Source: Aestuariimicrobium kwangyangense DSM 21549
GTDB lineage: Bacteria; Actinomycetota; Actinomycetes; Propionibacteriales; Propionibacteriaceae
Assembly (NCBI RefSeq): GCF_000421525.1
Contig: NZ_ATXE01000002.1
Span: 372,001-436,000 of the forward strand
Length of the DNA: 64,000 nt
Direction: 5' to 3'
Shown here: in pieces, positions 46,318 to 49,309 of the stretch
Layout: the number at the start of each line of letters is the position of its first letter
Position numbering within the stretch: the stretch's first letter is position 1
Program-made: the position numbers and the translations under genes
The notes under the pieces: model-generated
What the model saw: the letters and a program-made list of their open reading frames with translations, nothing else
What the model was told of the DNA's origin: nothing
The model's database searches: none

Positions 46318-47349
46318 TCAGGCTCCGAACAGGTCGGGTTCGACCTGCCGTGTCGGGTTCTGGGGAGGGGTGAGCCCCAGGTGTTCCCACGCCGCAGGGG
46401 TGGCGACCCGCCCCCGGGGTGTGCGCATCAGGAAGCCCTGGCGCACGAGGTAGGGCTCGGCCACGTCCTCGACGGTCTCGGTCTCCTCACCGACGCTGAT
46501 GGCGAGTGTCGACAGGCCCACCGGGCCGCCGTTGAACTTGCCGCAGATGGCCTGGAGCACCGCCCGGTCGAGCCGGTCCAGACCGATCTCGTCGACCTCG
46601 TAGAGCCGCAGGGCCAGGTCGACGGTCTGATGGGTGATCCGGCCGGCGTGGCGTACCTGGGAGAAGTCCCTCACCCGCCGCAGCAGGCGGTTCGCGATGC
46701 GGGGGGTGCCCCGGGACCGTCCGGCGATCTCGGCGGCCGACGCGTCGTCGAGCCGGAGCCCGAGCATGGCCGCGGAGCGGGCGACGATCACGGCCAGAGC
46801 ATCGGTGTCGTAGAAATCGAGGCTCGCGGTGAACCCGAACCGGTCGCGGAGCGGCCCCGGCAGCATCCCAGCACGGGTGGTGGCCCCCACCAGGGTGAAC
46901 GGTGGGATGTCGATGGGGATGGCGGTCGCGCCGGGTCCCTTGCCCACGACCACGTCGACGCGGAAGTCCTCCATGGCCAGGTAGAGCATCTCCTCGGCGG
47001 GCCGCGCCAGCCGGTGGATCTCGTCGAGGAAGAGCACCTCGCCCTCGACCAGCCCAGACAGGATGGCGGCGAGGTCACCCGCGTGCTGGATGGCCGGGCC
47101 CGACGAGATGCGGATGGGCGTCGCCATCTCTGCGGCGATGATCATGGCGAGGGTGGTCTTGCCCAGCCCGGGAGGCCCGGACAGCAGCACGTGGTCGGGC
47201 ACGGTGCCGCGGTGCTTGGCGGCGTCGAGCACCAGCCCCAACTGGTCACTCACCCGGGGCTGGCCGCCGAACTCCGCCAACGTCGTCGGACGGAGGGCAG
47301 CCTCCGATGCCAGTTCCGCCGGATCGACCAGGGGATCGACGGCGCTCAT
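46318..47349 (-). CDS. ruvB: Holliday junction branch migration helicase RuvB
   Basis: A 343-residue AAA+ motor that drives branch migration with Ruv[19 protein letters not shown] is the usual start, Walker [14 protein letters not shown], Walker [16 protein letters not shown], and [18 protein letters not shown] holds sensor 1 and the arginine finger. The C-terminal winged helix ends [20 protein letters not shown]. The ATG at 47349 overlaps the ruvA stop (ATGA); the frame is open 29 codons further. Confidence 0.96.
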
Positions 47350-47954
47350 CGGGCAAGGCTCCGCAGGGCGGCCCTCATCAGCTGGCCGACACCGATCGTC
47401 GGGTCGTCCGAGACCAGCGGGGCAACCTTCTCGCATGCCGCGTCGGCGTCCTTGCTGCTCCAGCCCAGACCTTGCAGACCGCTCGAGACCTGGTCGCGCC
47501 AGGCCTCGTCCCCGCTGGGGGCCCGATCCGGCTGGGGACCGGGGGTGAGACCCAACTGGGCGACCTTGTCCTTGAGTTCGATCACCATCTTCTGGGCTCC
47601 CTTGGCGCCGATCCCGGGCACCGAGGTCAGCCTGGCCAGGTCGCCCTGCTGCACGGCGCGGACGAAGTCGGCCGGGGCCACCACCGAGACGACGGCCAGC
47701 GCGAGCTTCGGACCCACCCCCGAGGCGGTCTGCACCAGTTCGAAGGCGTCACGTTCCATCGCCTCGGCGAAGCCGTAGAGGGTGAGCGAGTCCTCACGGA
47801 CCACCAGCGAGGTGTGCAGGTGCAGGGAGTGTCCCGGTCGGGCGGCCGCCGAGGTGGCCGGGGTGCACAGGGCCTTCACCCCGAATCCACCCAGGTCGAC
47901 CACCACCCAGGTGGCGCCAGCCTCGAGGCAGGTGCCCCGCACTTGGTTGATCAT
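47346..47954 (-). CDS. ruvA: Holliday junction branch migration protein RuvA
   Basis: A 202-residue junction-binding protein. It has the N-terminal OB domain (about 1-64), tandem helix-hairpin-helix motifs ([14 protein letters not shown] and [15 protein letters not shown]) and the C-terminal RuvB-binding helices after a flexible linker. The ATG at 47954 ([10 protein letters not shown]) overlaps the ruvC stop by ATGA, and its stop overlaps ruvB. Likely under the same LexA control as ruvC. Confidence 0.95.
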
Positions 47955-48526
47955 GACCTGCTCCTGTTCGGTGTCCTGCTCCGGTGGGTGGCGGTGGTCC
48001 TGGCGCTGTGTTCGGCGACCAGCGCCGCGTACCGGTTGGTGGCGCTGCCCCGCCACAGGTGGGTGATGGCCAGCGCGACGGCGTCGGCGGCATCAGCGGG
48101 CTTGGGGGCCTCGGTCAGTCTCAACACCCGCGCGACCATCACACCGACCTGGGCCTTGTCCGCCCGGCCGGATCCGGTGATGGCGGCCTTCACCTCGCTG
48201 GGTGTGTGCAGCACCACGGGGATGCCGTGTCGGGCGGCGACCAACATCGCCACGCCGGCGGCCTGGGCGGTTCCGGTGACAGAACTGAGGTTGTGCTGGG
48301 CGAACACGCGTTCGACCGCCACCGCGTCGGGACGATGGGTGGTGACCCATTCCTCGATCCCCTGCTCGATCTGCAACAGCCGCTTGGCGAGGTCAAGATC
48401 GGCCGGGGTGCGCACCACTCCCACGGCGACCAGGCTGGGCGGTCGTCCGACCACGCCCTCGACCACTCCCACGCCACAACGGGTCAGACCGGGGTCGACC
48501 CCGAGCACGCGGATTGCCGAACACAT
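47951..48526 (-). CDS. ruvC: Crossover junction endodeoxyribonuclease RuvC
   Basis: A 191-residue Holliday junction resolvase. The four catalytic acids are visible: Asp in [12 protein letters not shown], Glu in AVERVF, and two Asp in [13 protein letters not shown]. The C-terminal tail is Arg/Ser-rich. The ATG at 48526 lies inside a perfect CGAAC-N4-GTTCG LexA box, and a TANNNT box is placed 7 bases upstream, so the mRNA appears leaderless and SOS-inducible. It is the first gene of ruvC-ruvA-ruvB. Confidence 0.96.
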
Positions 48527-48531
48527 GTTCG
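48518..48531. promoter_or_regulatory. LexA (SOS) box at ruvC
   Basis: CGAAC-ACAT-GTTCG is a perfect match to the Gram-positive/actinobacterial LexA consensus CGAAC-N4-GTTCG. It covers the ruvC start codon (48524-48526) and the predicted transcription start. ruvCAB genes are known SOS targets in actinobacteria. Confidence 0.82.
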
Positions 48532-48533
48532 AT

Positions 48534-48539
48534 ACGCTA
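48534..48539 (-). promoter_or_regulatory. -10 box of the ruvCAB promoter
   Basis: TAGCGT on the minus strand lies exactly 7 bases before the ruvC ATG and within the 15-base gap to the yebC stop. Transcription would start at the A of the ATG. Confidence 0.55.
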
Positions 48540-48541
48540 GC

Positions 48542-49309
48542 TCATTCCTCCTCGAGGGCTACCGCGACATCCTCGGGCACCTCGACATTGGAGTAGACGT
48601 TCTGCACGTCGTCGGAGTCCTCGAGCGCATCGATGATGCGGAACAGTTTCTGGGCCTCGTCCAGGGTCACCGTCTGGGTGAACTCGGGCTTGAACTCGAC
48701 CTCGGCCGATTCGTAGTCGAGTCCGGCGGCCTCGACCGCCTTGCGCACCTCGACCATCACCGACGGGTCGGAGATCACCTCGAAGGCCTCGCCCTCGTCG
48801 ACGACGTCCTCGGGCTCGGCGTCCAGTGTCGCCTCGAGCAGGTCGTCCTCGCCGACCTCACGGTCGGACTGCTTCTTCAGCACGGCCACGACACCCTTGC
48901 GGGCGAAGATGCGCTGCACGGAGCCGCCATCGGCCATCGAGCCGCCGTTGCGGGTGACGGCCACCCGAACGTCCGAGATGGCGCGGTTGCGGTTGTCGGT
49001 GAGGCACTCGATCAGGATCGCGACACCGGCGGGCCCGTAGGCCTCGTACATGATCGTGTCGTAGTTCGCACCGCCACCGTCTGCACCCGACCCGCGCTTG
49101 ACGGCGCGGTCGATGTTGTCGTTGGGGACGGAGGTCTTCTTGGCCTTCTGGATCGCGTCGTAGAGCGTGGGGTTGCCAGCGGGGTCACCACCACCGATGC
49201 GGGCCGCCACCTCGACGTTCTTGATCAGCTTGGCGAAGAGCTTGCCTCGCTTGGCGTCGATCGCAGCCTTCTTGTGCTTGGTGGTCGCCCACTTGGAATG
49301 CCCGCTCAT
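48542..49309 (-). CDS. yebC: YebC/PmpR family protein
   Basis: 255 residues with the universal start [25 protein letters not shown] and the three-domain YebC fold ([18 protein letters not shown] and [11 protein letters not shown] are signatures). Members were long called transcriptional regulators; recent family work links them to translation of proline-rich stretches. The acidic tail ends EEE. The ATG overlaps the stop of the upstream GNAT gene (ATGA). It precedes ruvC as in most bacteria. Confidence 0.95.

Follow-up and report, generated by a model that had tools for sequence, protein, structure and literature searches.

A predicted LexA operator that contains a probable leaderless start codon of ruvC in Aestuariimicrobium kwangyangense

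Background

Can a single short DNA site serve as the operator of an SOS gene and also as the place where both transcription and translation of that gene begin? This question is raised by the ruvC gene of Aestuariimicrobium kwangyangense DSM 21549, which lies in a 64,000-nucleotide stretch of the genome (contig NZ_ATXE01000002.1, positions 372,001 to 436,000; hereafter, the window). The ATG of this gene is found inside a perfect CGAAC-N4-GTTCG palindrome. In Streptomyces, the LexA motif is tCGAAC-N4-GNNCGa, and ruvC is a validated target (PMC9380542). In mycobacteria, an ATG or GTG at position +1 suffices for translation (PMC4633059), and in Streptomyces coelicolor, leaderless mRNAs arise from 21% of primary transcription starts (PMC4895711). 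Here and below, statements about cited papers are drawn from excerpts of them.

We propose, with a probability of about 0.82, that the SOS (LexA) operator of ruvCAB is fused with a leaderless start in this genome. The evidence comes from the layout of the promoter, from its conservation among relatives, and from the places in which a start codon recurs within the operator.

Results and discussion

Layout of the yebC-ruvC junction

All features at this junction are on the minus strand, and coordinates are those of the window. The stop codon of a yebC/pmpR-family gene (48542..49309; TGA at 48544-48542) is followed after 2 nucleotides by TAGCGT (48534..48539), a -10 element of the form TANNNT. 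The dinucleotide AT (48533-48532) separates this element from the 14-base palindrome CGAACATGTGTTCG (48518..48531), which is the predicted LexA operator. Within the palindrome is the ruvC ATG (48524..48526), the predicted transcription start and start codon. It begins 7 nucleotides past the last base of TAGCGT and 15 nucleotides past the yebC stop, with which it shares its reading frame. Residues M-C-S of RuvC are encoded by an operator half-site. The 22-base string TAGCGTATCGAACATGTGTTCG has a single occurrence in the window. An earlier sequence-only reading had described a perfect palindrome with the ATG inside it, and TAGCGT 7 bases ahead, all packed between the yebC stop and ruvC; the coordinates (48531-48518 for the palindrome and 48526-48524 for the ATG) confirm this description.

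Conservation of the operator and -10 element

To see how far this arrangement extends, we used a family sample of 147 genomes, in 141 of which RuvC was found. We parsed 136 ruvC regions, leaving out L121, L176, L187, L211 and L242. The best match to the palindrome within 150 nucleotides upstream of the RuvC core was recorded, and promoters whose match had at most one mismatch are called boxed.

By this definition, 101 of the 136 family promoters are boxed (84 perfect, 17 with one mismatch), and the other 35 have two or more mismatches. A TANNNT sequence ending 0-6 nucleotides upstream of the box is present in 99 of the 101, whereas controls shifted by 20-100 nucleotides gave 0, 1, 0, 0 and 1. 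The spacing to the box is 1 nucleotide for 72 matches and 2 nucleotides, as in the window, for 19. In a comparison set of 80 named loci (L022-L101), a box was found in 27, with TANNNT likewise placed in 23 of these. Because the box and the -10 element are conserved as a unit in the family, the prediction of a conserved LexA operator at ruvC, overlying the predicted transcription start, is strongly supported, in agreement with what had been proposed from the window alone.

The genome also encodes one LexA, as the sequence-only reading presupposed. This protein has the DNA-binding domain PF01726 and the S24 peptidase domain PF00717, and its best match among solved structures is 6a2q, 'LexA repressor'. 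One RecA is present. At the lexA promoter (L016, minus strand, about 1825-1865), TACCGT is followed by 7 nucleotides and an ATG; should translation of lexA begin at this ATG, the gene may also be leaderless.

A start codon inside the operator

At the ruvC start in the window, no Shine-Dalgarno sequence was detected (-1.9 kcal/mol for the anti-Shine-Dalgarno duplex). No other in-frame ATG, GTG or TTG separates the yebC stop from the RVLGVDPG motif, and the next candidate is the GTG of the motif itself (48508). RuvC might be translated from this GTG on a short leader, with the in-box ATG unused, and the core motif does begin just one codon earlier. However, no purine-rich site precedes the GTG, the start codons of boxed relatives lie at or before the position of the R, and a start there would presumably deprive the fold of part of its first strand. 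We therefore consider a GTG start highly improbable.

We scanned 299 loci (some genomes are present twice) for start codons relative to the box, which yielded 175 distinct boxed promoters after nine duplicates were merged. Of these, 156 have their nearest start codon outside the box, and 19 have it inside. For the 156 leadered starts, the median energy of the anti-Shine-Dalgarno duplex is -7.9 kcal/mol, and 94% are at -4 or below; for the 19 in-box starts, the median is -2.4 kcal/mol, and a single one is at -4 or below.

These 19 promoters comprise that of this genome (L102), six from a group termed g29 (L152, L154, L163, L254, L258 and L306) and twelve that are Aeromicrobium-like (L038, L061, L282, L283, L284, L288, L290, L293, L297, L298, L299 and L301), among which L038 and L061 are named Aeromicrobium. 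Group g29 is presumably Tessaracoccus/Arachnia-like, because the upstream sequences of its members L257 and L255 are shared with the named loci L035 and L041. A second group, g31, appears to be Aeromicrobium-like from its likeness to L061. An in-frame in-box ATG is present in 9 of the 38 g29 genomes examined, out of 39 (G164, a fragment, was left out); six of the nine lack a later start, and three have another RTG codon 9 nucleotides on. In g31, 18 of 21 genomes were examined, and 10 have an in-frame in-box ATG without a later start. Many g29 genomes have no box at ruvC (at least three mismatches in the best match) and a short gap to yebC (for example, L253, L255, L260-L262, L267-L269, L271, L272, L275 and L277-L281), an apparent case of operator loss.

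The in-box ATG occupies offset 5 of the box in the window and in Aeromicrobium; in g29, it occupies offset 7. Despite this difference, its distance from the -10 element stays at 6-8 nucleotides throughout (7-8 in g29; 6-7 in g31, L038 and L061; 7 in the window), a constancy that a fixed transcription start would demand. An ATG or GTG 6-8 nucleotides past the -10 element was our mark of a leaderless start, and the ruvC ATG of the window falls in this range. Because of the 7-nucleotide spacing, the missing Shine-Dalgarno sequence, the lack of another start and the same geometry elsewhere, the ruvC start in the window is most likely leaderless and inside the operator. This result supports the leaderless mRNA that the sequence-only reading had suggested.

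On a RuvC tree with 175 rows, the in-box-start label corresponds to seven changes, in which gains and losses are inseparable. The starred branches (30 of the 172 inner branches) force at least three changes among the labelled rows.

Evidence against a fused operator and start

Several observations weigh against an SOS operator that is fused with a leaderless start. No -35 element is recognizable at the ruvC promoter. Perfect CGAAC-N4-GTTCG palindromes occur at 21 places in the 2.99-Mb genome, which is about the number expected by chance: Markov models of orders 2, 3 and 5, fitted to the window and simulated once each, gave 22, 19 and 15 perfect boxes per 3 Mb, respectively. The genome-wide count was therefore rejected as evidence. 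From the genome and simulation counts, the chance of a box in a given 40 base pairs would be about 3 in 10,000. A perfect box is not rare as a string, and the meaning of the operator rests on its place and its conservation. Nor is there a perfect box upstream of recA or lexA, although the sequence-only reading had expected a genome search for the palindrome to return both genes. The boxes found there have one or two mismatches: CGTACGCGTGTTCG (one) and CGAACACTTGTCCA (two) upstream of recA, and CGAACGAGATTTCA (two), CGAACCGTTGTGCG (one) and CGAACAGGTGTACA (two) upstream of lexA.

Relatives supply further points on this side. Four promoters counted as having in-box starts (L282, L283, L284 and L288) have an in-frame GTG 9 nucleotides upstream of the in-box ATG. 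The sole congener compared (G037, L105) has a leadered ruvC and, like most boxed relatives, carries a leader with a Shine-Dalgarno sequence after the box. The stretch from the box to the RuvC core is 22 nucleotides in the congener and 6 nucleotides in the window. Since the congener is leadered, the lineage of the window may have changed only recently; the stretch between the box and the RuvC core would have been shortened, and an ATG borne by the box would have been turned into the start. In addition, Mycobacterium tuberculosis ruvC is, by the title of a 2010 paper by Dawson, reportedly induced independently of RecA despite its SOS box.

Finally, transcriptional read-through from yebC could be another source of ruvC mRNA. 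In a rival explanation of this kind, the LexA operator is real, but the main ruvC mRNA comes from or through yebC, LexA acts as a roadblock, and ribosomes re-initiate 15 nucleotides past the yebC stop. The short distance between the two genes, their common strand and their common frame are in keeping with this view, as is the merely short yebC-ruvC gap of many box-less g29 relatives. However, nearly all boxed family promoters conserve the -10 element beside the box, and the GGAGG at the end of yebC lies about 20 nucleotides from the ATG, which is too far for a normal Shine-Dalgarno interaction. We judge this explanation unlikely, though less so than a GTG start.

PafBC as an alternative regulator

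The damage response of ruvC might also depend mainly on PafBC, through a RecA-independent promoter, with the box being a relic. To evaluate this possibility, we searched for TTGTCRGTG-N8-TANNNT, which we take to be the PafBC/RecA-NDp promoter motif, allowing at most two mismatches. The motif is found at 44 of the 53 box-less ruvC promoters among the named loci, and at all 42 of the Streptomyces loci, three of which have a box too. The genome under study also has an adjacent pair of WYL-domain, pafBC-like genes. However, the ruvC promoter of the window lacks the motif (the best match is mismatched at 5 of 9 positions), as do all 136 family promoters (0/136), and it occurs at just 4 of the 27 boxed named promoters. 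PafBC control of the window ruvC therefore seems very doubtful.

These counts indicate that ruvC mostly has a LexA operator in the family and a PafBC-type promoter in the sampled Streptomyces, which suggests that the damage regulator may have been swapped at ruvC between groups. The WYL-domain gene pair (L291, 958-2993) probably represents pafB and pafC.

Proposed mechanism

For a LexA operator fused with a leaderless start, we envision the following mechanism. RNA polymerase would initiate at the A of the ATG or at most one or two bases away. LexA bound to the box would cover the -10/+1 region and block initiation, and upon DNA damage, RecA-stimulated cleavage of LexA would free the operator. 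The resulting mRNA would begin with AUG and undergo leaderless translation, so that the N-terminus of RuvC (M-C-S-A-I) would be encoded by the operator; RuvA and RuvB would be made from the same mRNA.

If the 5' end is indeed at the ATG, one 14-base-pair site is a repressor site, a transcription start and a start codon. Sharing this site means that LexA regulation and the first three residues of RuvC would constrain each other.

Mini-open reading frames that begin in the box

Some relatives have an in-box ATG that is out of frame with ruvC and opens a mini-open reading frame (mini-ORF). In the other eight g31 genomes (Aeromicrobium-like loci L285, L294, L295, L296, L300, L302, L303 and L304), the stop of the mini-ORF overlaps the start codon of ruvC (ATGA or GTGA). 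In L029, L139 and L153, the overlap takes the form TGATG. In six loci of genus g7 (L151, L166, L171, L174, L180 and L243) and in L103, the mini-ORF ends 7 nucleotides inside ruvC, on GTGATG.

We compared triplets at offset 5 that lie 6-8 nucleotides past the -10 element. Where this triplet is ATG (n = 31), it is the nearest RuvC start in 13 promoters, its frame stops on the ruvC start in 11 and at +7 in 7, and it is never unconnected with ruvC. Where the triplet is neither ATG nor GTG (n = 89), the corresponding frame is that of ruvC in 20, stops on the start in 4 and at +7 in 1, and is unconnected in 64. The difference between ATG and other triplets has a one-sided Fisher probability of about 1e-6 when relatedness is ignored. 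A GTG in this place leads onto the ruvC start once and is unconnected three times. At offset 7, ATG (n = 18) is the nearest start in 6 promoters, is in frame with another start in 5 and is unconnected in 7; GTG (n = 18) is in frame in 3 and unconnected in 15.

One explanation is that the in-box ATG is a recurrent module. An ATG at +1 would capture the ribosome and so would be retained only where its reading frame leads into ruvC: it would be the leaderless start of RuvC (in this genome, g29 and Aeromicrobium) or the start of a leaderless mini-ORF whose stop overlaps the start codon of ruvC (ATGA, GTGA or TGATG). Selection at the level of translation would then act on the operator spacer, which is normally free. 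Three results argue against a module. Pairing on the tree gave five independent pairs on starred branches, of which on average 3.8 are in the expected direction and 0.1 in the opposite one, and this is not significant (median p = 0.125). The unconnected ATGs at offset 7 (7 of 18) do not fit, and L094, a named Aeromicrobium, has a box without an ATG. We hold this explanation tentatively, at somewhat less than even odds.

Relation to known systems

Neither the control of actinobacterial ruvC by LexA nor leaderless mRNA is new in itself. What looks new is the start codon inside the operator, its occurrence in distinct groups, and the mini-ORFs linked with it. In the open-licence literature in PubMed Central, as far as its accessible text goes, we found no report of a LexA operator that contains a leaderless ruvC start.

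The closest precedents each share a part of the arrangement. In S. venezuelae, ruvC is listed among the targets of LexA and its validated box is at -23 (PMC9380542), but that box is far from the consensus, whereas the one described here is perfect and contains the start codon. In M. tuberculosis, RuvC is detectable only after mitomycin C treatment, and an SOS box is attributed to its gene (PMC8151990). The lexA gene of M. tuberculosis is an SOS gene whose start codon is its transcription start (PMC2897130); here, the gene is ruvC instead, and the excerpt of that report does not state that the lexA operator contains the start codon. Some Escherichia coli mRNAs carry a 5'-terminal AUG mini-ORF followed by a leadered gene, as in rhaB with its ATGA overlap, and so resemble the out-of-frame relatives, although removal of the AUG left rhaB expression unchanged (PMC4965119). 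Unlike in the window, where the AUG would start RuvC itself, no AUG-containing operator is described in the excerpt of that paper.

Among the relatives, promoters with a leadered start, a leaderless start, a mini-ORF that ends on the start codon, or a lost box form a series in which the co-evolution of an operator and a start codon could be studied. Gene finders may misplace ruvC starts in these groups.

Other genes and other perfect boxes

Around the junction, on the same strand, the gene order is yebC, ruvC, ruvA, ruvB. The ruvC gene (47951..48526) encodes 191 amino acids and matches Pfam RuvC (E = 1.1e-51); TIGR00228 scores above its cut-off and NF000711 just below. The ruvA gene (47346..47954; TIGR00084, 9.3e-50) overlaps the ruvC stop by 4 nucleotides. 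The true start of ruvB (46318..47436; NF000868, 2e-143) is probably inside this open reading frame.

The window contains two perfect boxes, and the second (48301..48314, minus strand) is inside ruvC, in the codons of the VERVFA motif. We considered this box as a second operator and rejected it. The Glu codon that it includes is GAA in 32 of the 136 family genes, and 32.1 are expected (computed gene by gene with a pseudocount); in raw terms, the 24% at this position is a slight excess over the 18% (142/779) at pooled other Glu codons. A perfect ruvC-internal box is present in 8 of the 136 family genes and in none of the 80 named loci, and the one in the window is probably fortuitous.

Another perfect box in the genome (L006:1485-1514) is preceded by TATAGT, with an ATG 5 nucleotides on and the box 2 nucleotides past that ATG. 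It lies ahead of a DUF6504/PHP-domain (dnaE2-like) gene cluster, and the ATG opens a putative 88-codon open reading frame.
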